Source: Sulfuricurvum sp. (GTDB lineage Bacteria; Campylobacterota; Campylobacteria; Campylobacterales; Sulfurimonadaceae). Taken from it: a stretch of DNA of 64,000 nt. Each line of letters begins with the position of its first letter. The stretch's first letter is position 1. The translations under genes and the position numbers were made by a program. The notes beneath the pieces were generated by a model. The model was not told the origin of the DNA. It did no database searches and saw nothing but the letters and a program-made list of their open reading frames with translations. Of this stretch, positions 4,153 to 15,705 are shown piece after piece. The stretch lies in the NCBI RefSeq assembly GCF_028713855.1, contig NZ_JAQTNN010000001.1:274696-338695 (forward strand). Reading direction: 5' to 3'.

Positions 4153-4599
4153 TTAGTCAATTTTTGAATCGTAATCCACAAAGTAAATCTTCAATGTGTT
4201 CTTATGCACCAATATAAAGCAGGGTCGATCGTGATCAAACTCTACGACTACCAAATGATACTTACCCAATTCACTGACATACGAAAACCTTTGCGAATCG
4301 CCATCGTCTTTGCCTTTGTAAACGTAACTTTTTAAGCTTAAGTCAGGCTTTCCAGCAGCTTTAAAAATAAGTTTATCTGAGGACTTCTTAACGCCGTTTG
4401 GCAATATTGTCGTTTTGCTTTTCTTTAAGAATACATCACCAGCATTTTTGATTTTTAACAAAGCTGAAGCGTTGGACTCTGATATACGAGTAACGTAACT
4501 TTGATCGAAGATATAGCCATTTCGTCCATCAAAATCATGCGGGTACGCACGGCTAGAGATAATGAATAAAACAAGCACGATAGCAACAGTATATTTCAT
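4153..4599 (-). CDS. hypothetical exported protein
   Basis: 148 aa from the ATG at 4599 (MKYTVAIVLVLFIISSRAYPHD). The hydrophobic N-terminus with a polar cut region is a convincing signal peptide, and an AAGAGA precedes the ATG. The longer frame from 4632 would place extra charged residues before the signal peptide. The mature part is Lys-rich and beta-like (LLKIKNAGDVFLKKSK, YHLVVVEFDHDRPCFILVHKNTLKIYFVDYD). Family not recognised. It stands alone between oppositely oriented genes. Confidence 0.6.
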   Translation of the reverse strand: MKYTVAIVLVLFIISSRAYPHDFDGRNGYIFDQSYVTRISESNASALLKIKNAGDVFLKKSKTTILPNGVKKSSDKLIFKAAGKPDLSLKSYVYKGKDDGDSQRFSYVSELGKYHLVVVEFDHDRPCFILVHKNTLKIYFVDYDSKID

Positions 4600-4736
4600 G
4601 AAATTTCTCTTAGTTATATCGATATATTTCAAATATTTTACATCGTTTTTCTTAAAAGAATTTCCGCAAACGCTTTAACGGCAGGCAAAGCGAAAAAAGA
4701 GCAAAATTCCCAAATCATAAGATAATTGGAACCCCG

Positions 4737-5495
4737 ATGACAGCCGAAAATTTTAATCTCACAGACTACCTCTCCCGTATCGGCTTTGATGGGGAAGTGC
4801 ATCCCGATGTCGCAACACTCACTCAGTTAGTACAAAAGCAACTGCGAAGCATTCCGTTTGAAAATACCGAAGTGCAGGCGGGACGAATCCCCTCGATGGT
4901 TCCCGAAGAGATCGTCGATAAGGTGCTAGTGCATCAACGTGGCGGGTACTGCTACGAGATCAACGGCGTGTTTGCCATGGCACTCACCGCAATCGGATTC
5001 GAGTGGTATTTCGCGGGGGCGCGACCGATGTTTTATCCGATGAGACGACCCAAAACCCATATGGTGGTGATCGTACGTGTCGAGGGGAGAGATTATCTTT
5101 GCGATACGGGATTTGGCGGATATGCTTTACGCGCTCCGATGATGATAGAAGAGGGGGAAGCGGTGCAGGACGGTGATCGTTTCCGTATGGAGCTGATCGA
5201 TGGTGAATACGTTGTGAGTTCTCTCGTGCAAGATGAATGGCAACGTCAATACGGCTTTGCATTACAACCGCAAGAGTGGATCGAGTTTAGCCTCGCGAAC
5301 TACTTTAATGCCACTCATCCTGATACCATTTTCACGCAGAAAAAACTCGCGATTATGCAGACACCCAACGGACGTAAGATCCTTGTGGATAATGAGCTAA
5401 AACTGATCGAAGAGGGGAAACTCGAAAAACTCGAAGTGGAGTACACGAGTGCACTCAAAGAGTATTTTGGACTGGATCTTTTCAAAACGACATAA
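4737..5495 (+). CDS. nat: arylamine N-acetyltransferase
   Basis: 252 aa, the usual length for the NAT family. The complete Cys-His-Asp catalytic triad is visible: RGGYCYE (C72), KTHMVV (H108) and LCDTGFGG (D123). The conserved IPFENTEV at about residues 39-46 also fits. These cytosolic enzymes move an acetyl group from acetyl-CoA to arylamines or hydrazines. The ribosome site is weak (GGAAC before the ATG). It is followed after 60 bases by a VOC protein with its own strong ribosome site. Confidence 0.93.
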   Translation: MTAENFNLTDYLSRIGFDGEVHPDVATLTQLVQKQLRSIPFENTEVQAGRIPSMVPEEIVDKVLVHQRGGYCYEINGVFAMALTAIGFEWYFAGARPMFYPMRRPKTHMVVIVRVEGRDYLCDTGFGGYALRAPMMIEEGEAVQDGDRFRMELIDGEYVVSSLVQDEWQRQYGFALQPQEWIEFSLANYFNATHPDTIFTQKKLAIMQTPNGRKILVDNELKLIEEGKLEKLEVEYTSALKEYFGLDLFKTT

Positions 5496-5555
5496 TAGTT
5501 GAAACGTTTATAAAATGATGCTACGATAATCGAAAATATCCAGGAGGACTATAAA

Positions 5556-5945
5556 ATGAATCCATTTACAACGCACGGTGCATTTAGTTGGTTTGAACTG
5601 TTAACAGGTGATGTTGAAGGGGCAAAAAAGTTTTACGGCGACGTCTTTGGTTGGGAGTTTAAAAAAGCCGATAACGTCGATTTTGACTATCAGTTAGTAA
5701 CATTAAACGGTCAAGAGATGGCAGGTATTATGGATCTAAAACATTGTGATGATGAAAAAGTACCGCCGCATTGGGGCAATTACATAACCGTCACAGACAT
5801 AAAAGCCACGTTAGAGAAGGCAAAAGAATTAGGGGCAAATGTTATTGTCGAGATTACGCCGATACCGAAAGTCGGTGATTTCGCTATCATCCAAGATCCG
5901 CAAGGAGCGGTTATATCCATGATAGAGTATAAGATGGAGTGTTAA
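5556..5945 (+). CDS. VOC family (glyoxalase/bleomycin-resistance fold) protein
   Basis: 129 aa, one VOC unit. FSWFELLTGDVEGAKKFYGDVFGWEF is the family's first beta-alpha-beta element, and the C-terminus (DFAIIQDPQGAVISMIEYK) has the expected D-P-x-G-A and terminal Glu metal-ligand region. These proteins usually dimerise and bind a divalent metal; the substrate cannot be told from sequence. A strong AGGAGGA site precedes the ATG. The stop is 17 bases upstream of the next gene, so they may be co-transcribed. Confidence 0.85.
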   Translation: MNPFTTHGAFSWFELLTGDVEGAKKFYGDVFGWEFKKADNVDFDYQLVTLNGQEMAGIMDLKHCDDEKVPPHWGNYITVTDIKATLEKAKELGANVIVEITPIPKVGDFAIIQDPQGAVISMIEYKMEC

Positions 5946-5962
5946 ATACGCAAGGATCATCA

Positions 5963-6580
5963 ATGAATCTAAAAAAACTAAAAGAAGCTGAGGAAAATTT
6001 CTTCGCATTTTATCCCAAAGGATTCGAAGACGAAGCACTCCAACTGATCATCAAACGGCACAATACGGCAAAAATAGGTCAAAGTGTACGGGAAATGTTT
6101 GCACCTGATCGTTTCGCCCGCACCGAAGAAATCTGTGAGAATTTTGCAAAAGTCGTCTCCAAATCCTCACTGGTATCGCTCTTCGAAAAACCCAAAGTCA
6201 GAGATATGGTTAAGCAGATGAGTATGGAGCAGCAGGATATGCTTGCCATCGGACTGTTTGAGCTTTTACACGCTAATCCAGAGAAAGGTTTTGAAATCTT
6301 GGTTGATGTCTTGTCGACCTATAAGCTTGCGAAATGGTCGATCGTGACGCTGATTTCCTATTATTATGCAAGGGACAAAGAATTTTTTATCAAACCGACT
6401 ACGACGAAAGATATTATCAAATTTTTTGATCTTCAGGGATTGGTATACAAACCCCGTCCGACGTACGAGTTTTACTCGAAGTATACAAAGATACTCGAAG
6501 AGATGAAGTCGCACGTGAGTCCATTAATCGGCGAAGATAATGCCGGATTTACCGGATTTTTGATGATGGCGATGAAATAA
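5963..6580 (+). CDS. hypothetical protein, helical
   Basis: 205 aa from the ATG at 5963, with AAGGA 7 bases upstream; a GTG at 5939 overlapping the VOC gene is less likely. The protein looks all-alpha and soluble, beginning MNLKKLKEAEENFFAFYPKGF and ending in a short hydrophobic tail (AGFTGFLMMAMK). No catalytic motif was recognised. It follows the VOC gene closely, which suggests one transcript. Confidence 0.65.
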   Translation: MNLKKLKEAEENFFAFYPKGFEDEALQLIIKRHNTAKIGQSVREMFAPDRFARTEEICENFAKVVSKSSLVSLFEKPKVRDMVKQMSMEQQDMLAIGLFELLHANPEKGFEILVDVLSTYKLAKWSIVTLISYYYARDKEFFIKPTTTKDIIKFFDLQGLVYKPRPTYEFYSKYTKILEEMKSHVSPLIGEDNAGFTGFLMMAMK

Positions 6581-6749
6581 AAAGATTTATACTTAAATTG
6601 TAACTTGAAGTTACAAAAAAAACATACAATAGACATATTTATACATAGAATTTATTTTTTTTGATAAAATATTTTTACATCAATATTTTTATTTTATATT
6701 ATTACGTGTTATCTCTAAAGTAATACGAAAGTATTCAAGGATTAGGAGA

Positions 6750-8420
6750 ATGGCTAAAGATAAACATATTCTTCAAAATGATCTTCACGAAATCCACTCT
6801 GTCAGTAATACGACCAATATTAATTTGCTCCAAACTATTTTAGAAAGTTCACCAAACATTATGATCTTTGCTTTAGACAGAGAATATAAGTATATAGCAT
6901 TCAACCATGGGCACAAAGAGGTCATGCAGACCATTTGGGGCAAAGAGATTGAACTGGGTTTAAATATGCTGGAGATTATAGTTCGTGAAGATGATATCCG
7001 AAAGGCTAAAGCTCTTTTTGACAGAGCACTTAGAGGTGAATCATTTGTCGATGAGACGGAATACGGTGATGAAGTATTGTCTCGAAAATTTTGGCAAACT
7101 TTTTATTCACCGATCTACGATGATGCCCATAAAAAAGTGATCGCTCTAACCTGCTTTAATCTTGATATATCGGAACGGCGGAATATTGAAAATCAGCTTC
7201 AGCTAGCGGATTTAGCGTTAAATATGATCACCGATGCTGTTTATTTGTTCAATGAAAAAAGTGAAATCATCTATGTTAATCAAGCCGCTTGCGATTCACT
7301 GGGATATACTAAAGAGGAAATGATCGGTAAAACACCTTTTGATATTGATCCGGTTATTACTATAAATGAGTTAAAAAACATTAGAAAGACGATTCGTCTT
7401 AAAAAAGTAATCCATTTTGAAACTAAACATAAGCGACACGACGGCTTTGTATTTGATGTAGAAGTCACCACCTATCCATACAATGATGGTCAATACGGCT
7501 TACATATTGTCAAAAATATCACCGATCGGAAAAAAACCGAAGAGAAATTAAAACTTCTTGCAAGCGTCTTTACGAGTGCAAAAGAGGGGATTGTTATTAC
7601 CGATACAAAAGGAACCATTGTCGAAGCTAATGAGGCGTATAGTCTTATCACAGGATATTCAAACGATGAGGTTGTAGGGCAAAATGCGGGATTTCTAAAA
7701 TCCGATAAACACGATAATGCATTTTACAAAAATATGTGGAATGAACTCATCCGCAATAAGTATTGGATTGGTGAAATTTGGAATCGGAGAAAAAGCGGAG
7801 AAATTTTTGTAGAGAGACTGACCATTTCTGCCATTAGCGATTCAGAAGGGAAAACGTCAAGTTATGTTGGATTGTTGACGGATATAACGACAGGAAAAGA
7901 TTATGAATCGACGTTGGAGAGGATGGCATTTTACGACTCTTTGACAGGATTGCCGAATCGCTTGTTATTTGCTGAGAGAATCAATCAAGCCATGATGATT
8001 TCAAAACGTCTTAACAGCATGATGGCAGTCTGTTTTCTGGATTTGGATGAATTTAAACCTGTTAACGACGATTTCGGGCACAGTGTCGGCGATACATTGT
8101 TGGTAGAAATGGCGAGTCGGATGCAAAAGTGTGTCAGAGAAAGTGACACGGTTGCCAGAATGGGGGGAGATGAGTTCGCTATATTGCTTTTAAATCTAAA
8201 TACAGTAGAAGAATGCGAGACGACCATCACCAAAATTTTGGATAGCATTATTGAACCATTTATTGTCCCAAATAAAGAAGCTGTCAATGTATCCGCAAGT
8301 ATCGGTGTAACGTTGTATCCGCATGATAATGCCGCTTCCGATACATTGCTTCGACATGCGGATCAGGCTATGTATGTGGCAAAAGAAAGCGGTAAAAATC
8401 AATATGTTTTTCACAATTAA
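6750..8420 (+). CDS. diguanylate cyclase with three PAS domains
   Basis: 556 aa with no membrane segment, so cytosolic. Three PAS units occupy about residues 25-142, 150-262 and 265-382 (the last with the ITGYSNDEVVGQNAGFLKSD signature of Aer-like PAS). A GGDEF domain follows from about 388. The active-site motif GGDEF (472-476) is intact and the inhibitory I-site R463-E-S-D466 sits exactly five residues before it, so an active, product-inhibited c-di-GMP synthase is expected. The 168-base leader upstream is very AT-rich, and an AGGAG lies before the ATG. The ligand of the PAS domains is unknown. Confidence 0.92.
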   Translation: MAKDKHILQNDLHEIHSVSNTTNINLLQTILESSPNIMIFALDREYKYIAFNHGHKEVMQTIWGKEIELGLNMLEIIVREDDIRKAKALFDRALRGESFVDETEYGDEVLSRKFWQTFYSPIYDDAHKKVIALTCFNLDISERRNIENQLQLADLALNMITDAVYLFNEKSEIIYVNQAACDSLGYTKEEMIGKTPFDIDPVITINELKNIRKTIRLKKVIHFETKHKRHDGFVFDVEVTTYPYNDGQYGLHIVKNITDRKKTEEKLKLLASVFTSAKEGIVITDTKGTIVEANEAYSLITGYSNDEVVGQNAGFLKSDKHDNAFYKNMWNELIRNKYWIGEIWNRRKSGEIFVERLTISAISDSEGKTSSYVGLLTDITTGKDYESTLERMAFYDSLTGLPNRLLFAERINQAMMISKRLNSMMAVCFLDLDEFKPVNDDFGHSVGDTLLVEMASRMQKCVRESDTVARMGGDEFAILLLNLNTVEECETTITKILDSIIEPFIVPNKEAVNVSASIGVTLYPHDNAASDTLLRHADQAMYVAKESGKNQYVFHN

Positions 8421-8445
8421 TCTATACGTAGGATTATGTGTCGCT

Positions 8446-8457
8446 TGACATATGTCA
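8446..8457. repeat. 12-bp palindrome between convergent genes
   Basis: TGACATATGTCA is a perfect palindrome in the 91-base space between the convergent diguanylate cyclase and MerR genes. No T-tract follows, so it is not an obvious terminator. Its function is unknown. Confidence 0.3.
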
Positions 8458-8511
8458 GCCTCACATGATGATTATCTGTTTACTTCTTTTCAAGCAATAT
8501 TTTGAGGAGTA

Positions 8512-9198
8512 TCAGTCCTTTTTTTCTCTGATTTCTTCTTGCAGAACTTCCATTAGCTCTTTGTGGGTATAGCGGCTGAAAAGATACGATTTGGCATTAA
8601 AAAGAGTTTCAAACATAATTTTCCAAAGGGTCGAAAAATTCTCATCGGTGCGTCTTTTGCACAGCTGTTTTTGTAATTGGCACTCTAAATCAGCCATTGC
8701 TTTTGCTTGGTTGACATATGTTTTGAGCAGCGTGTAATCAAGGCCTATTTCGATGTAGTCTTCAATGAGACGTATGATCGATGCCTCTTTATCGGTAAAG
8801 TCATCTGTATTGGTCGGAACCAGGATATTGTCTTCCAGAAGTTGTTCCAATAAGACAGCCTCAACATCGAAATAATCGATAAACTCTTGTTTAGTGTAAT
8901 GTTTTGCCGTGGCCGGAATACCGCTTAGCGTCTCCATGAGAGGTGCAAGCATCGAAAAAGAACTCGCCATCGATTGATTTTTATGCTGCAAAATTCCTTT
9001 GATCTGTTCGATGGAACTTCCCATCTCTTGCTGCATGTATTTGATGTATTTAATGAGTTCAACGTGCTCTTCACTATAGCGGTGGACATTGGATTTGAGC
9101 TTTTGGGCTTCTGGAAGCAACCCTTCTTTGATGTAGTATAAAATAGTCGATTTCGGAACATGGGTGAGTTCTACGAGTTCTGATATTTTATAATCCAT
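8512..9198 (-). CDS. MerR family transcriptional regulator
   Basis: 228 aa. The N-terminus is a MerR winged helix: MDYKISELVELTHVPKSTI then LYYIKEGLLP, followed by NVHRYSEEHVELIKYIKYMQQEMGSSIEQIKGIL (the dimerisation-helix start). The C-terminal 150 residues are a longer helical effector region than in metal-type MerR proteins and contain no Cys cluster, so a small organic effector or a protein input is more likely (inference). AAGGG lies 6 bases before the ATG. It is divergent from the deformylase-like membrane protein and a palindrome overlaps its promoter. Confidence 0.87.
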   Translation of the reverse strand: MDYKISELVELTHVPKSTILYYIKEGLLPEAQKLKSNVHRYSEEHVELIKYIKYMQQEMGSSIEQIKGILQHKNQSMASSFSMLAPLMETLSGIPATAKHYTKQEFIDYFDVEAVLLEQLLEDNILVPTNTDDFTDKEASIIRLIEDYIEIGLDYTLLKTYVNQAKAMADLECQLQKQLCKRRTDENFSTLWKIMFETLFNAKSYLFSRYTHKELMEVLQEEIREKKD

Positions 9199-9225
9199 GA
9201 TTTCCCTTGATTAATACGTATATAA

Positions 9226-9244
9226 GAATTATACCCTATAATTC
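9226..9244. promoter_or_regulatory. 19-bp palindrome, probable MerR operator
   Basis: GAATTATA (9226-9233) and TATAATTC (9237-9244) are perfect inverted arms around CCC. The right arm supplies a TATAAT on the reverse strand, with a TTGACG 15 bases further upstream, so the palindrome covers the likely merR promoter. A 19-bp palindrome in the promoter spacer region is the usual MerR arrangement. Confidence 0.5.
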
Positions 9245-9318
9245 AAAACGTCAAGTGTTACTCAACGCTTTTTGTTTATTTGCTTTAATATTTATCTGTA
9301 ACTATCGAGGTTTTTCTA

Positions 9319-10125
9319 ATGGTTCAACCGCTGCTCAAATATCCGGATTCAAGAATTCGTCTTATCTCGGCTAACGTCCGCTTTTTTAATGATGAATTGC
9401 TTCAATGGATCACCGATATGGTCGATACGATGAAGGAAAACGATTTGGATGCGCTGAGTGCGATTATGATCGGTATCCAGTACAACGTTATTGTTATTAA
9501 AAATGCTGATACATATCTTCCGTATGTTAACGCACGTGTGATCAAATGTATCGGAAACGTGATACAAACGGAGCGAAGTACCTATTATGAGGGTTTTAGT
9601 GTAGACGTTGAGCGCTTTGAAAATGTAACCGTCATTTATGAAGATGAAAAAGGGGAACCGCATCATCAGGATCTTTCCGGTGATTCGGCACGTATTTTCC
9701 AACATCAGCTTGATTATTGTTTTGGAAGTACCTTTGTTGATCGGGTTGATCGGGAGATGAAACAACGAATTAATAATCATCTTGAATTCGGACTTGTAGC
9801 AAACGGCAGTTCCTGTCCGATGGTATTCGTCCGCGATTATTTCAAACGGGGAGCAAAATATGTGATGGCCCTTATTGCTCTGAGCTTCATCATCCCATTT
9901 TTCACTTCTGCCGGAGTGCGTGAGCTGATTTATCGGATCGATACCTATCTTCTCCTCGCCGTACCGGTATTGATGATCGCATACTTTTTCTATGCTTTGT
10001 ATGAGTCCCGACTTTATAAACAATGTACGAGCTGCCAGATAGGCAATATTATCGGCACGACCGCGATTATGGCAACACAGCTTCTGCTCGTCGGTCTCGG
10101 TGTATTTTTCTGGGTTGCGCCGTAA
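9319..10125 (+). CDS. membrane-anchored, catalytically dead peptide deformylase-like protein
   Basis: 268 aa. Residues 1-147 follow peptide deformylase closely in order: LLKYPDSRIRLIS, FNDELLQWITDMVDTM, then LSAIMIGIQYNVIVI (family: GLAAPQIG...VIVI), YYEGFSVDVERF (family: EGCLSVPG) and IFQHQLDYCFGSTFVDRV (family: QHEIDHLNG). All catalytic and metal positions are changed: the metal Cys is F93, and HExxH is H129-Q130-L-D-Y133. Deformylation is therefore very unlikely. The C-terminus adds about three membrane helices (roughly 181-198, 208-228, 244-266) with a CTSC pair at 236-239. A GAGG precedes the ATG. It is divergent from a MerR regulator and followed by an AhpD-fold gene. Confidence 0.8.
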   Translation: MVQPLLKYPDSRIRLISANVRFFNDELLQWITDMVDTMKENDLDALSAIMIGIQYNVIVIKNADTYLPYVNARVIKCIGNVIQTERSTYYEGFSVDVERFENVTVIYEDEKGEPHHQDLSGDSARIFQHQLDYCFGSTFVDRVDREMKQRINNHLEFGLVANGSSCPMVFVRDYFKRGAKYVMALIALSFIIPFFTSAGVRELIYRIDTYLLLAVPVLMIAYFFYALYESRLYKQCTSCQIGNIIGTTAIMATQLLLVGLGVFFWVAP

Positions 10126-10160
10126 CTCTGAAGTATTTAAATCGCATAAAAAGGAAAACA

Positions 10161-10691
10161 ATGGCACATATAGCATTACCCGAATTTGAAGAGATGAGCC
10201 CTGCTGTCCAGGAGAAAGCCCGCCCGATTTTAGAAAAAACGGGAAAACTGGGGGAGATATTCAAACTGTTGGCATTGGATGAAAAGATCTATTTTGCAAC
10301 GGATGGGATGATTCAACGCTTTTTACTTGATGAGACGACACTCTCTTATGATATTAAAGAGTCTATTGCCCTTTTGATCTCAAAAGAGAACGGCTGTAAG
10401 ATGTGTGTCGATGTCCATAAATCGATTGCAAAGATGTTGGGACTCTCGGAACAGCGGATCGAAGAGGTGTTAGAGGGTGTAGATGCTATCTCGACTAGTG
10501 ATGCCGAAAAAGCACTGCTTAATTTCTGTATCAAAGCGTCTAAAAAAGAGAACTATAAAATTCTCAAAGAAGAGATCGATGCTCTAAAAGTGTTAGGATA
10601 CACGGATGTTCAGATCGTAGAAGCGGTCGCGATCACCGGCTATTTTAACTATATTAATACCCTGTCCAACGTCTTCGCTCTGGGGCAATAG
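10161..10691 (+). CDS. carboxymuconolactone decarboxylase / AhpD-like protein
   Basis: 176 aa from the ATG at 10161, preceded by AAAGGAAA. It carries the complete AhpD-type redox motif CKMCVDVH (C79, C82, H86), unlike the related protein at 1544-2074 where the His is Asn. A peroxidase-linked disulfide reductase or alkylhydroperoxidase role is likely; the true substrate is unknown. It follows the deformylase-like membrane protein by 35 bases and is probably co-transcribed with it. Confidence 0.87.
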   Translation: MAHIALPEFEEMSPAVQEKARPILEKTGKLGEIFKLLALDEKIYFATDGMIQRFLLDETTLSYDIKESIALLISKENGCKMCVDVHKSIAKMLGLSEQRIEEVLEGVDAISTSDAEKALLNFCIKASKKENYKILKEEIDALKVLGYTDVQIVEAVAITGYFNYINTLSNVFALGQ

Positions 10692-10693
10692 TC

Positions 10694-11155
10694 CTAGTGC
10701 GAGCTTTTTTCGCTCTCCAGCCGTAATAAAAACTCTTTTTTCTCTATCCCTCCGCTGTATCCTCCCAGTCCGCCGCCTGTAGCAATGACACGATGGCAGG
10801 GGATGAGGATTGCTATGGGGTTACGACCGTTGGCATTAGCGACGGCACGGGTTGCTTTGGGATTTCCGAACCGTTTTGCCTCCTCAGCGTAGGTGATCGT
10901 TTGGCCGTAAGCGATTGTGATCAGTGTATTCCAAACGCTCTTTTGAAACGGTGTTCCTGTCGGATTTAAGGGGAGGCTAAAAGAGGCTCTTTTGCCAACG
11001 AAATATTCTCCCAGTTCCTTTTCCAGTTGTAGCAACAGCGGATGATCGCTATGATCGTTCATAGATACCTCATCGGTAAAATCAAGCGAGATAATTGCTT
11101 CGCCGTCGGTTACTGCGATCATAGTGCCAAGCGGGGTATTGATGTAGCGTATCAC
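10694..11155 (-). CDS. ogt: methylated-DNA--[protein]-cysteine S-methyltransferase
   Basis: 153 aa. This suicide enzyme transfers the alkyl group of O6-alkylguanine to its own Cys. The active-site PCHRV lies in LIPCHRVIATGGGLGGYSGG, and the DNA-binding helix region (FGNPKATRAVANANGRNP) is intact. The start is a GTG that overlaps the stop of the upstream nucleotidase (GTGA), indicating translational coupling. It is convergent with the AhpD-like gene, with 2 bases between. Confidence 0.95.
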   Translation of the reverse strand: MIRYINTPLGTMIAVTDGEAIISLDFTDEVSMNDHSDHPLLLQLEKELGEYFVGKRASFSLPLNPTGTPFQKSVWNTLITIAYGQTITYAEEAKRFGNPKATRAVANANGRNPIAILIPCHRVIATGGGLGGYSGGIEKKEFLLRLESEKSSH

Positions 11156-12111
11156 GAGTTAGATGTGTGGAGTGGCGAATCGCTGTGATAGGGGACTTTT
11201 CCGGAAGGGACGGCATGCGCGGCAGTATCGAGATGGACATCCTGATCGTCGAAAAAGATGTGGGGTTTGAAGGCCTTTAGAACGCGGCTCTTTTCAACCC
11301 CTCCCAGAAAAAATGCTTCATCCACATAAACTCCCCACTCTCGAAGTGTTTTAATGACTCTCATTTCAGCCGGTGAACTGCGTGCGGTGACGATGGCGAT
11401 GCGAATAGGGGAGTATTCGACGCGAATCGGCAGACGGTCTTGGAGTCGGGAGAGTTTTTTTAGCAGAGTCGCGTAAGGCCCTTCACCCAAAGGGGTGTCC
11501 TGAGCGGCATCTTCGGCGGCATGGAACGCTTTTAGCCCGTGTTGTTTGTAGAGGAGCTCACTGCTGTCATCAAAAAGTACTGCATCACCGTCGAAGGCGA
11601 TCCGAACCTGTCCTTCAGGAGTTGAACCTATCTCCTTCGGAGGTGCTTTGACGACGGCGGCGGCACAGATACGGCTGTCTATTACCTGCTGTGCATCGGG
11701 AATATCGGTTGTGAGGAAGAGATCGACGTCAAAAGCATCCAGATAATCGACGACCGTCTCTCCGGCGGTAAAGGCTGAACGTGAAATCGGCAGTCCCATT
11801 TTACGGATTGTATTAAGGACACGCAGACCCGTTTCTGGACTATTTCGCGACATGATGACCACTTCGACGAGAGGAGTCTCTCCCTCTTTTTGATATCGGT
11901 TTAGTTCGAGAAGTGCTTTGACGAGTGGAAAACCGGTTCCTTGGTCGAGGATATCGTTTTCCCGTTCGGACATATATTGACGGTACACTTCGATCGCACT
12001 ATCGGGATCGTTTTGATACTGTTCTTTAAAGACGCGGTCGGATTCGGATAGGTCAAACAGCGCCGTAGCGGTGATACCGACGACGAGCGTATCGGAGAGA
12101 TCGAGTGCCAT
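11152..12111 (-). CDS. 5'-nucleotidase, NT5C1-like family
   Basis: 319 aa from the ATG at 12111 (MALDLSDTLVVGITATALFDL), preceded by AAAGGAA; the frame extends 18 codons further but without a ribosome site. It matches the cytosolic 5'-nucleotidase type-1 family: VVIMSRNSPETGLRVLNTI, RIAFDGDAVLFDDSSELLY (HAD-like D-x-D nucleophile region), RIAIVTARSSPAEMRVIKTLREWGV and PHIFFDDQDVHLD. It should hydrolyse nucleoside monophosphates. It forms a two-gene operon with ogt, so it may serve nucleotide salvage or damage clean-up (inference). Confidence 0.85.
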   Translation of the reverse strand: MALDLSDTLVVGITATALFDLSESDRVFKEQYQNDPDSAIEVYRQYMSERENDILDQGTGFPLVKALLELNRYQKEGETPLVEVVIMSRNSPETGLRVLNTIRKMGLPISRSAFTAGETVVDYLDAFDVDLFLTTDIPDAQQVIDSRICAAAVVKAPPKEIGSTPEGQVRIAFDGDAVLFDDSSELLYKQHGLKAFHAAEDAAQDTPLGEGPYATLLKKLSRLQDRLPIRVEYSPIRIAIVTARSSPAEMRVIKTLREWGVYVDEAFFLGGVEKSRVLKAFKPHIFFDDQDVHLDTAAHAVPSGKVPYHSDSPLHTSNS

Positions 12112-12227
12112 CGTATTCCTTTGGAAAAATTGGCTCATTATAGAACAAAATATGGCATGAAGCAATTAAATTTCTCTGTTGAATGACTTATGCTATTATA
12201 TTTATGATATAAAAAGCGGAGGGTATT

Positions 12228-12797
12228 ATGCCGGTTTCACGCTGCGGATGGGTCAAACTGAGTGATCCTGTCTATGTCGCTTATCATGATGAAGAGTGGG
12301 GGAAGCCTTTACACGATGATCGAACCCTTTTTGAACTCTTTAGTTTAGAGACCCAATCGGCAGGTTTGAGCTGGCTGACGATCCTCAAAAAACGTGAAGG
12401 GTATCGCGAAGCATTTGAGGAATTTGATCTGAATAAGGTGGCACACTATGGGGAGGCAGACATAGATTGCATACTCAACAGCGGACTTGTGGTAAAAAGC
12501 CGTCCCAAAATTGAAGCGATTATCACGAATGCACGAGGGTTTTTAGAGATTCAAAAAGAGTACGGTTCCTTGGATACGTATTTTTGGGGAAAAGTGGGCG
12601 GAAGAGCAATTATTAATGATGTTTCTGATTACAAAGAAGCGGCGTGTACCTCAGATATTTCCGATACTATTACAAAAGAGCTCAAAACACGGGGATTTAA
12701 ATTTATCGGAACGACTACCATGTACGCGTTTATGCAAGCATGTGGGATGATCGACGATCATGAAAATAGCTGTATGTGCAAACAAATAAGGAAATGA
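12228..12797 (+). CDS. tag: DNA-3-methyladenine glycosylase I
   Basis: 189 aa, the normal length. It excises 3-methyladenine from DNA. Diagnostic features are SRCGWVKLSDPVYVAYHDEEWG with the zinc ligands Cys6 and a His in YHDEEWG, the QSAGLSWLTILKKREGYREAFEEFD block, and the C-terminal DDHENSCMCK supplying the remaining His/Cys zinc ligands. A GGAGGG site is 6 bases before the ATG. The ABC ATPase gene follows after 6 bases, giving an operon. Confidence 0.95.
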   Translation: MPVSRCGWVKLSDPVYVAYHDEEWGKPLHDDRTLFELFSLETQSAGLSWLTILKKREGYREAFEEFDLNKVAHYGEADIDCILNSGLVVKSRPKIEAIITNARGFLEIQKEYGSLDTYFWGKVGGRAIINDVSDYKEAACTSDISDTITKELKTRGFKFIGTTTMYAFMQACGMIDDHENSCMCKQIRK

Positions 12798-12803
12798 TTT
12801 TAA

Positions 12804-13601
12804 ATGAATTCGATAGTATTATTCGACAATGTCCAACTCACGTACACCCAATCTCCGGTCCTAAAAAATATTTCGCTTCAAATCGATCAAGGGGAGCACT
12901 GTGTTATCCTTGGGGCAAACGGTTCTGGGAAATCGAGCCTTATCAAACTGATTAATTGCGAACTGTATCCGTCTTATATCGATGAGCCGTTTAGAAGAGA
13001 GATATTGGGTAATGAACGATGGGTTATCACTGAATTACGTAAGCATTTAGGGGTTGTTACGAACGATCTGCATACCCGTTTCGCATTTGAGAGCGGCTAT
13101 CTCAGCGGGTTTGAGACGGTACTGAGCGGTTTTAACGGAACGATAGGGTTGTTTGATCATTTAGAGGTGACTAGTGAGCAGATCGAAGCGGCTGAACGCG
13201 CCATGATGCGGTTGGGAATCGAACACCTGAGAGAAAAACATTTGAGTGAGATGTCGACGGGAGAGCTTCGAAAATGTATCGTAGCTCGTGCGCTTGTTCA
13301 TCCGGTAAAAGCGATTTTGCTTGACGAACCGACGGTAGGACTGGATATTAAATCGCAGCTTGATTTTATAGAGATGATGCGCTCTTTGGCTAATAGCGGT
13401 ACGACGGTTATTTTGGTGACACATCATATCGAAGAGGTATTTGAAGAGATCACTAAAGCGGTATTGTTAAAAGAGGGAGTAATCTATGCAGCAGGAAAGA
13501 AAGAAGAGGTGTTAAACAGTGACAACCTATCAACTATATTCAACACGTCGCTAGAAGTAGATAAAAGATATGGACGTTATTCGATACATCCTAAAACGTA
13601 A
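12804..13601 (+). CDS. orphan ABC ATPase, ModF/YlmA-like
   Basis: 265 aa, a single nucleotide-binding domain: Walker A GANGSGKSS, signature STGEL in LSEMSTGELRKCIVARALVHP, Walker B AILLDEP, and the switch His in VILVTHHIEE. The sequence resembles the ModF/YlmA-type group (COG1119 style). No permease or binding-protein gene is adjacent, so either its membrane partner is elsewhere or it acts as a soluble ATPase. It sits between tag and a Cdd1-like gene. Confidence 0.85.
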   Translation: MNSIVLFDNVQLTYTQSPVLKNISLQIDQGEHCVILGANGSGKSSLIKLINCELYPSYIDEPFRREILGNERWVITELRKHLGVVTNDLHTRFAFESGYLSGFETVLSGFNGTIGLFDHLEVTSEQIEAAERAMMRLGIEHLREKHLSEMSTGELRKCIVARALVHPVKAILLDEPTVGLDIKSQLDFIEMMRSLANSGTTVILVTHHIEEVFEEITKAVLLKEGVIYAAGKKEEVLNSDNLSTIFNTSLEVDKRYGRYSIHPKT

Positions 13602-13612
13602 AGGTTATACTC

Positions 13613-13915
13613 ATGAACCCTGCGAAAGTCATTCGTGAAAAAGTCGAAAAACTGACTGATCTTCCCAATGTCGGTAAAACGGTTGCCGCTGATTTTACCC
13701 GAATCGGTATTACTCACCCAAATCAGCTTCGCGGAGAGGACCCGTATGATTTGTATGTTCGATTTTGCAAAGCGTTTGGGGAGAAACAAGACCCGTGCAT
13801 GCTCGATGTGCTGATGTCGATCACCGATTTTATGAACGGAGGAGAGGCTCGTGTATGGTGGGCTTATACCACCGAGCGTAAAAAGCGCTACGGAGAGAAG
13901 ATTATTGTCTGTTAA
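13613..13915 (+). CDS. helix-hairpin-helix protein (Cdd1 / 'pathogenicity locus' family)
   Basis: 100 aa. The LPNVGKTVAADFTRIGITHPNQLRGEDPYDLY stretch is a helix-hairpin-helix element like that in the TfoX C-terminal domain and Cdd1 proteins. The C-terminal WWAYTTERKKRYG is typical of the Cdd1 family. Family members have no firm function; non-specific DNA or RNA contact is plausible. It starts 11 bases after the ABC ATPase with AAAGG upstream, and is probably the last gene of the tag operon. Confidence 0.82.
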   Translation: MNPAKVIREKVEKLTDLPNVGKTVAADFTRIGITHPNQLRGEDPYDLYVRFCKAFGEKQDPCMLDVLMSITDFMNGGEARVWWAYTTERKKRYGEKIIVC

Positions 13916-13942
13916 ATAATACGTTACACGTCTTGTGTGAAT

Positions 13943-15088
13943 TTAAGCATTTTGAAGGATAGTGGCGATTGTCTGGGAAGAATATTCTTCTCCCATACCC
14001 CACAATAGTGCTAACCCATGAGCATTTTCTGCAATTTCACCAATACGCTCTTGCGGAATATTTGCAGCTGAGAGGGTAACCGGTGCACCGATAGAGTTAA
14101 ACCAATTTTCCAATGCACTGATTCCTTCATCTGCTGTTTCGAGTCCGAAAACCTCTTTGGCAAAGCGTTCAAACTGAGCCGGATTTTGCCCTTTGTACCA
14201 TTTCATCCATGCCGGTATTACAATGGCTAAACCTGCACCGTGAGCGATATTAAAGAGGGCAGAGAGGGCGTGTTCGATCATGTGATTTGGAAAACTTCCA
14301 CCGCCAGTTCCTGAGTTTGTCAAACCGTTGAGTGCTTGTGTAGAAGCCCACGCAAACTCGGAACGCGCATTGTAATTTTGCGGATCTTTGAGAAGGATTT
14401 CAGTTGTTTCAATAACTGTTTTGACAATTGATTCGACGAGTCTGGACTGAAAGTGGGGATGATCGTCGGCGGTAAAATAGACTTCAATGGTATGTGCAAT
14501 AATATCGGTTGCCGAATAAGCCAGATATTCCGGTGTAACGCTCATCATCAGTTCGGGATTGATAATCGAAATTTTAGGGTTAACGAATACGGACGCAATG
14601 GAGTATTTTTGTTTGGTCGTATCGTTCATTACGACTGAGTTGCCGTTCATTTCACTGGCAGTTGCTGCAAGGGTCATGACTGCATAGACAGGAAGAGCAG
14701 CCGTGATAGATGCTTTTTGGATGAAAAAATCCCATACGTCTCCATCGTATACTGCTCCTGCAGCGATCGCTTTAGCCGAATCGACGACTGAGCCTCCGCC
14801 GACTCCGAGAACGGCTTGTAGATTATGTGATTTTACTATTTCGATTCCATCATGAACGCGGGAGAGCAGGGGATTGCTTACGACTCCATCAAGTTCTTCA
14901 AATGTGATTCCTGCTGTTGTGAGACTCTGAACAATTCTGTCGTATAAGCCGTTTTTTTTGATCGAACCCGTTCCGTAGACGAGGAGGAGACGTTTGATCC
15001 CCTGCTCGGCGATCATTTCTCCGATGTTGTTTTCTTTTCCGCGTCCGAATTCGATTCGGGTAGGGTTGTAGTAGGTAAATGCGTTCAT
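13943..15088 (-). CDS. iron-containing alcohol dehydrogenase
   Basis: 381 aa, full length for group III Fe-ADHs (YqhD/BdhA type). NAD(P) binding is shown by GVGGGSVVDSAKAIAAGA. The metal-binding region has D and H residues in YSATDIIAHTIEVYF, NHMIEHALSALFNIAHGAGLAIVIPAW. It should reduce aldehydes or ketones to alcohols using NAD(P)H. It is the first of a group of reductases on this strand; AAGGAA precedes the ATG. The nitroreductase gene upstream ends 11 bases before its start. Confidence 0.92.
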   Translation of the reverse strand: MNAFTYYNPTRIEFGRGKENNIGEMIAEQGIKRLLLVYGTGSIKKNGLYDRIVQSLTTAGITFEELDGVVSNPLLSRVHDGIEIVKSHNLQAVLGVGGGSVVDSAKAIAAGAVYDGDVWDFFIQKASITAALPVYAVMTLAATASEMNGNSVVMNDTTKQKYSIASVFVNPKISIINPELMMSVTPEYLAYSATDIIAHTIEVYFTADDHPHFQSRLVESIVKTVIETTEILLKDPQNYNARSEFAWASTQALNGLTNSGTGGGSFPNHMIEHALSALFNIAHGAGLAIVIPAWMKWYKGQNPAQFERFAKEVFGLETADEGISALENWFNSIGAPVTLSAANIPQERIGEIAENAHGLALLWGMGEEYSSQTIATILQNA

Positions 15089-15099
15089 TAGTTTCCTTG

Positions 15100-15705
15100 T
15101 TAAATATACGTTACGAGTTCACTTAATTCAGATCTGTGTATAGGGGGCTGTTCATTGACACGGTATCCAAATGGAATGAGTAAGGGAACTCCATAAACCT
15201 CCGTATCAATCCCCATGATTTTCTCTACCGCATCACGATCAAATCCCTCCATCGGACACGAATCGATCCCGATCGATGCAGCGGCTGTCATCATGTTTGC
15301 CGCCGCGATATACACTTGGCGCGACGACCAGCACTCCAACACTTCATCACTGCGAGGATCGACGAATCCTGCGTACATTCCGAGCAGTCCATCAGGATAG
15401 TGGAATTTTGCAAATTCGTCTTGGATATAGGCATCGGTACTACGGACATTCTTTTTATAGGCAATCGCGATCAGTTCAGAGGCTGTCGTGATTTGAGGCT
15501 GATTCCATGATGCAGCTTGAATTTCTTCACGCATCGCGCTGTCGCGGATAACGAAAAACTGCCATTGCTCCATCCCGAACGAGCTGGGGCTGAGGCGTCC
15601 CGCTTCGAGGATAAAGGTTAGATCCTCACTACTCATTGTTTTAGTGTTATCAAACAGTTTGCACGCATGACGGAAGTGCATCGCATTTTCAAAATCGTTT
15701 CTCAT
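15100..15705 (-). CDS. NAD(P)H-dependent nitroreductase family oxidoreductase
   Basis: 201 aa, NfsB-like FMN enzyme. The N-terminal FRHACKLFDNTKTMSSEDL and the RLSPSSFGMEQWQFFVI block are the usual FMN-contact region; the C-terminal MEGFDRDAVEKIMGID with VPLLIPFGYR completes the fold. Substrates of the family include nitroaromatics and quinones. It lies between the mdaB-like and Fe-ADH genes with spacings of about 10 bases, so the three form one operon controlled from the HxlR-linked promoter. Confidence 0.9.
   Translation of the reverse strand: MRNDFENAMHFRHACKLFDNTKTMSSEDLTFILEAGRLSPSSFGMEQWQFFVIRDSAMREEIQAASWNQPQITTASELIAIAYKKNVRSTDAYIQDEFAKFHYPDGLLGMYAGFVDPRSDEVLECWSSRQVYIAAANMMTAAASIGIDSCPMEGFDRDAVEKIMGIDTEVYGVPLLIPFGYRVNEQPPIHRSELSELVTYI

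Follow-up and report, generated by a model that had tools for sequence, protein, structure and literature searches.

A conserved family of pseudo-deformylases with a predicted membrane tail, associated with sulfide:quinone oxidoreductase genes in Campylobacterota

Results

Gene and domain layout

The window, i.e. the whole analysed stretch of 64,000 nucleotides from Sulfuricurvum sp., carries on its forward strand a gene for a protein of 268 aa (9319..10125, stop included; 9319-10122 coding), indicated here as membrane pseudo-deformylase; its reality is supported by the open reading frame, by a family of 114 members and by a dN/dS of about 0.07. It is flanked by a divergent gene for a MerR-family regulator (8512..9198, reverse strand; MerR_1, 64.4 bits) and, downstream on the same strand, by one for a CMD/AhpD-fold protein of 176 aa with a CxxC...H motif (10161..10691, stop included; PF02627, 39.2 bits; ahpD core domain, 51.4 bits). 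The pairing with these two proteins, proposed in the initial annotation, is borne out by the domain matches of both flanking genes. An antisense open frame of 275 aa (9349-10176, reverse strand), which spans the entire gene and exceeds it in length, is very likely spurious; it masks the pseudo-deformylase gene when the longest-ORF rule is followed. Further upstream, the 213-aa protein encoded at 5939-6577 (forward strand) has no Pfam match at E 0.1 and adjoins a PAS-GGDEF protein; an 80% relative is found in the equivalent place at another locus (L041). Contigs C1 and C9 of the assembly each carry one copy of the pseudo-deformylase gene, its DNA being identical on both: positions 47000-57900 of C9 (G000, L021) correspond to window 4260-15160, at least 10.9 kb at 100% identity, probably an assembly duplicate and not a genuine repeat.

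Residues 3-147 (9325..9759, forward strand) form a non-catalytic peptide deformylase (PDF) fold. Pfam PF01327 scores 95.8 bits on the protein, versus a cut-off of 22.8, and the top PDB matches are deformylases (best E 1.8e-14 by phmmer). The full-length AlphaFold model, built with 28 homologues as input (mean pLDDT 77.9, residues 1-20 poor), superposes on E. coli PDF 1bsj within its residues 21-163 (Z 15.1; rmsd 2.7 A for 140 residues). The complete deformylase fold order, originally read from the sequence, is therefore confirmed by both the profile and the structural superposition.

The C-terminal tail is predicted to contain three transmembrane helices, approximately at residues 177-195, 207-227 and 243-266 (9847..10122, forward strand). 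Three hydrophobic segments are found by hydropathy, the flanking charges follow a positive-inside pattern, and the tail, when modelled separately by AlphaFold, gives three long helices with pLDDT 87. Cys166-Pro167 (9814..9819, forward strand) is located directly ahead of helix 1, while the helix 2-3 loop carries a CTSC motif (Cys236, Cys239; 10024..10035, forward strand). This is the three-helix tail with CTSC already noticed from the sequence, and both CTSC cysteines are present in 114 of 114 relatives. Mean K+R content is 2.7 for the helix 1 flanks, 2.1 for the helix 2-3 loop, both positive, and 0.9 for the acidic helix 1-2 loop. Judging from this charge bias, the PDF domain, Cys166 and CTSC would share one side of the membrane, most simply the cytoplasm.

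Assignment of the tail to a known family was tried and dropped: Pfam gave no credible match, the tail profile reached at best E 5.5 against PDB, and a PDB fold search with the tail-only model returned nothing below E 0.001. The three-helix bundle fold is too generic for further assignment. In 150 Campylobacterota genomes, no tail was seen detached from a PDF domain.

Loss of the catalytic residues

Residue equivalences were taken from an alignment of the window protein, its homologues and the genome's own catalytic PDF (L040), which features EGCLS and QHEIDH. None of the three deformylase motifs is intact in the window copy. In motif 1 (GxGxAAxQ), E. coli Gly43, Gly45 and Gln50 are replaced by Leu43, Ala45 and Met50. 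The former motif 2 (EGCLS in PDF) reads ERSTY, residues E85-R86-S87-T88-Y89 (9571..9585, forward strand); the alignment runs ungapped from invariant Glu85 to invariant Arg99, which places the metal ligand Cys90 of E. coli at Ser87. The initial annotation had placed Phe93 at this site, having matched EGCLS to EGFSV, six residues too late. The former motif 3 (QHExxH in PDF) reads Q128-H129-Q130-L131-D132-Y133 (9700..9717, forward strand), with HQLDY in place of HExxH; here the proposed exchanges, Gln130 for E. coli Glu133 and Tyr133 for His136, agree with the alignment to the genome's own PDF. The claim that all active-site residues had been replaced holds for Cys, Glu and the second His, and fails for the first one: E. 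coli His132 is retained as His129.

The losses are shared throughout the family. The position of the metal Cys is occupied by Thr in 67 of the 114 relatives, Ser in 43, Asn in 3 and Asp in 1, never by Cys, and HExxH is found in none of them; Gln128 and Asp132 are invariant. His129 is kept in 11 out of 114, the others having Arg, Gln, Glu or Val. Of the motif 1 residues, Gln50 is present in 88; Gly43 gives way to a bulkier side chain in 108 and to Ala in the remaining 6. Nor does the window protein reach the NCBIfam cut-offs for PDF equivalogs (TIGR00079, 65.6 versus 103.95 bits; PRK00150, 65.8 versus 125). The possibility of an additional catalytic PDF is ruled out by the lost catalytic residues, together with the presence of a full PDF elsewhere in the genome (G000:C13).

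Conservation and distribution of the family

The family was counted as 114 distinct full-length relatives, all from Campylobacterota; a divergent sequence (L169), featuring CTGC and devoid of Cys166, was left out. Homologues sharing both the substitutions and the membrane tail were thus found in number, all of them without the metal Cys or HExxH. Cys166, Cys236 and Cys239 are identical in all 114 and fall within two motifs, SCP-x-x-F-x-R-D-Y, whose Pro is kept in 113, and YKQCTSCQxGN(I)IG. Invariant residues of the PDF part, such as E85, R99, Q128, D132 and G136, also occur in the genome's intact PDF, and no specially conserved residue of the PDF pocket was seen in the alignment of the 114 relatives; beyond the PDF core, the strictly conserved polar residues are mainly the three cysteines. 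The window protein carries the family hallmark, namely a dead PDF domain and, behind it, Cys166, CTSC and three membrane helices.

Values of dN/dS versus close relatives range between 0.07 and 0.10 and are alike for the PDF part and the tail. A pattern shared by 114 intact relatives at such low dN/dS is neither chance nor decay, which rules out a pseudogene and is in line with the original view of a non-catalytic deformylase domain maintained by selection on a membrane anchor.

A profile search of 299 genomes sampled from the order gave 102 family copies, spread over 94 genomes. A scan of 84,980 species gave 152 loci; the best 80 all belong to Campylobacterota, or to unclassified MAG records among them, and include the genera Sulfuricurvum, Sulfurimonas, Sulfurovum, Hydrogenimonas and Sulfurospirillum, along with other relatives. 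In a tree of PDF domains, the family is split from 19 housekeeping PDFs by a single branch (support 100/100, length 1.13). The host genome contains exactly one catalytic PDF, one further member of the family, linked to a sulfide:quinone oxidoreductase (SQR) gene, and the window gene.

Association with SQR and a mini-protein

When neighbourhoods were clustered, the same gene was repeatedly found just upstream of the pseudo-deformylase. It encodes a 489-aa flavoprotein resembling sulfide-quinone reductases (3hyv, E 7.9e-38; PF07992; weak match to the type III SQR model). An SQR profile detects it in 155 of the 299 genomes of the order, including 93 of the 94 that contain a pseudo-deformylase, the exception being a genome 57% complete (Fisher's exact p 7e-34, uncorrected for phylogeny). 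Most copies (74 out of 102, in 73 genomes) are located downstream of SQR, on the same strand, at a distance of 206-571 bp (median 267). As 62 further genomes have SQR alone, the pseudo-deformylase is not required for SQR.

Among the 80 loci of named genomes, at least 60 feature SQR adjacency, and in 57 of these 60 a third gene fills the gap, coding for a membrane mini-protein of about 50-58 aa with the motif RTCKIWQFIRFVIINLKMxxVVSKSH. The mini-protein has no credible match in Pfam, and it is also present behind SQR in 11 of 20 loci without pseudo-deformylase. The SQR-trailing mini-protein (RTCxxWQxxRFxxINxKM...KSH) is unannotated in many Campylobacterota (L022, L123, L125 and others). In the host genome, a 69% paralogue of the window protein occupies such a module, with SQR and mini-protein (L022).

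The same gene order is found in a public Sulfurovum mangrovi record, where it is annotated as 'FAD-dependent oxidoreductase, hypothetical protein, peptide deformylase'. On a plasmid of this species (NZ_CP087125.1; L202, 5497-6312), a family member is split into two adjacent pieces, both named 'peptide deformylase'; the gene may be broken, or a sequencing error may be present, and the naming is misleading in either case.

Other genes recur around the module. Behind it, most loci of Sulfuricurvum and many of Sulfurimonas carry a hybrid histidine kinase gene with a response regulator opposing it, and PepN (aminopeptidase N) is found just upstream of SQR in many relatives. The kinase pair is counted among the general neighbours, as are the downstream HemN and GlcF genes, because such genes are also found behind SQR where the pseudo-deformylase is absent, or are located elsewhere. 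One family of genomes keeps the pseudo-deformylase among housekeeping genes such as recR.

The MerR/AhpD locus

The window copy, located between MerR and AhpD, has no SQR or mini-protein next to it. This arrangement recurs: its closest Sulfuricurvum relatives retain MerR, pseudo-deformylase and mostly AhpD, and MerR and AhpD neighbours are found independently in Sulfurimonas, in the order MerR, AhpD, DsrE, pseudo-deformylase. In two of these Sulfuricurvum relatives (L008, L010) the mini-protein is still present between MerR and pseudo-deformylase and is a relic of the SQR module. A single clade for all MerR-linked copies is rejected (p-AU 1.8e-6, in a test performed after an earlier tree had been viewed), so that the gene was acquired on two or more occasions, or exchanged.

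AhpD is a conserved partner of MerR, with or without the pseudo-deformylase, and the pair often occurs without it; where it is missing, the locus can include DsrE, and in relatives two PF04143 sulfur-transport genes lie between MerR and AhpD. In some genomes of Sulfurimonas type, such YeeE/YedE (PF04143) pairs belong to the MerR/AhpD locus (L199, 3762-4867; L197, 3781-4876), which suggests a MerR-controlled sulfur uptake locus. In two other loci (L161, L163; genomes G138 and G194) the SQR module is composed of SQR, mini-protein and kinase, while the pseudo-deformylase lies about 8 kb off beside MerR/AhpD, as if it had moved.

The two main homes of the family, the SQR module and the MerR/AhpD locus, both point to sulfur chemistry, and its genomic link to sulfide and sulfur genes is strong.

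Discussion

Proposed role in sulfur chemistry

As a housekeeping enzyme, peptide deformylase is essential, and it serves as an antibiotic target. The family described here, so far specific to sulfur-metabolising Campylobacterota, is a new, misannotated pseudoenzyme lineage of this well-known fold. Since the gene nearly always accompanies SQR, these conserved Campylobacterota proteins probably help to handle sulfur, rather than trimming new proteins.

We favor, with a probability of about one half, a membrane accessory protein of sulfide and sulfane-sulfur chemistry, in which the dead PDF domain docks and the cysteines accept or relay sulfur, or bind a metal. The home of the family is the three-gene module formed by SQR, the mini membrane protein of about 55 aa and the pseudo-deformylase; the latter would act at the cytoplasmic membrane. 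The PDF domain may serve as docking module or scaffold; Cys166, together with Cys236 and Cys239 on the same predicted membrane face, would make a thiol site, able to take or relay sulfane sulfur from SQR, or to hold a metal. Both the binding of sulfur or metal by the cysteines and the interaction with SQR are putative. The window copy would be a duplicate which departed from SQR and came under a divergent MerR, beside an AhpD-fold protein, probably with the same job under regulated reactive-sulfur conditions. Against this role stand the position of the window copy, away from SQR and mini-protein, the recR-type context of one family of genomes, the 62 genomes with SQR and no pseudo-deformylase, the divergent L169 with CTGC and no Cys166, and the frequent MerR/AhpD pairs devoid of the gene.

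A more specific version can be advanced tentatively, as possible rather than probable: the PDF fold would have become a membrane sulfur relay or SQR partner, whose cysteines take sulfane sulfur and whose dead domain presents it to cytosolic acceptors, while a paralogue twice joined a MerR/AhpD/DsrE/YeeE-type locus.

Alternative explanations

The same adjacency data would also fit an assembly factor or membrane anchor of SQR, involved for example in FAD insertion or in positioning, where the cysteines are structural or zinc-binding and not sulfur carriers; three invariant cysteines could form a metal site, and the PDF domain resembles a pure scaffold. Many SQR genes of the same type, however, lack a pseudo-deformylase, and copies distant from SQR persist under purifying selection; this explanation, the one to be taken most seriously beside a sulfur-handling role, is doubtful. 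A redox or sulfide sensor is unlikely: the cysteine cluster would detect persulfide or oxidant, and the PDF domain would signal, for example to the kinase/regulator pair found so often behind the module, or to the MerR flanking the gene in its second context; yet the kinase also trails SQR where the pseudo-deformylase is absent (L123, L124), the pair is missing from several lineages, and the protein itself features no signalling domain.

Two further explanations look to the deformylase domain itself. According to the initial annotation, it might still recognize formyl-Met or other N-termini at the membrane; as a reader of nascent N-termini, it would serve quality control or signalling. The intact fold, the retention of Gln50 in 88 of 114 relatives and the presence of PepN just upstream of SQR in many of them may be seen as indications in this sense, but PepN is a general housekeeping gene, the metal site is lost, no conserved signature was seen in the pocket and the neighbours are sulfur genes. 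Moreover, Leu or some other residue larger than Gly takes the place of Gly43 in 108 of 114 members: in Arabidopsis PDF1B, replacement of the matching Gly41 by Gln or Met lowers kcat/Km about 1000-fold and weakens ligand binding, including that of actinonin, bulky residues at this site destabilizing the ligand-bound state (PMC3101196). N-terminus recognition is accordingly held to be very unlikely, and that part of the initial annotation is not upheld. It is extremely improbable that the domain is still active, as a hydrolase or deformylase whose active site was remodelled. Ser or Thr is found at the Cys position in 110 of 114 relatives, and Glu85, Arg99 and Gln128 are conserved; against this, the window copy lacks the general base as well as two of the three metal ligands, its relatives usually lack all three ligands, and a full catalytic PDF is present in the same genome.

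Significance and comparison with known systems

At vents and redoxclines, Campylobacterota play a major part as sulfur oxidisers. For the genes described here the label 'peptide deformylase', as given by Pfam and RefSeq, is wrong. Their tie to SQR points to two unrecognised parts of sulfide oxidation in this phylum, the pseudo-deformylase and the mini-protein, and the family makes a question directly testable, namely the fate of the sulfur leaving SQR. If a sulfur relay or SQR partner is indeed involved, bacterial sulfide oxidation would gain a component not described before. In the literature, no paper was found describing the pseudo-deformylase gene or its mini-protein, nor one on deformylase together with Sulfurimonas, nor any report of a conserved, catalytically dead, membrane-fused deformylase lineage.

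Compared with bacterial PDF (Def; PF01327), the family shares the fold and its complete order, and keeps Glu85, Arg99, Gln128, Asp132 and Gly136. It differs in the absence of the Cys/HExxH set in 114 out of 114 members and in the membrane tail with three invariant cysteines; in addition, it forms a separate clade (100/100), falls below the NCBIfam cut-offs and co-exists with a true PDF. With respect to Campylobacterota SQR loci, where type IV and VI SQRs, among others, have been reported in a symbiont and in Sulfurovum indicum (PMC6702916, PMC10045233), the pseudo-deformylase is a frequent third member, after SQR and the mini-protein. In the YeeE/YeeD system, a membrane protein with conserved cysteines passes sulfur species to its partner (PMC11073785). 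No sequence or fold relation to YeeE was found for the pseudo-deformylase tail (nothing below E 0.001 in the fold search); YeeE/YedE-type PF04143 genes sit in the MerR-AhpD locus of relatives, and the relay of sulfur by cysteines of a membrane protein has a precedent in thiosulfate uptake by YeeE/YeeD (TsuA/TsuB).
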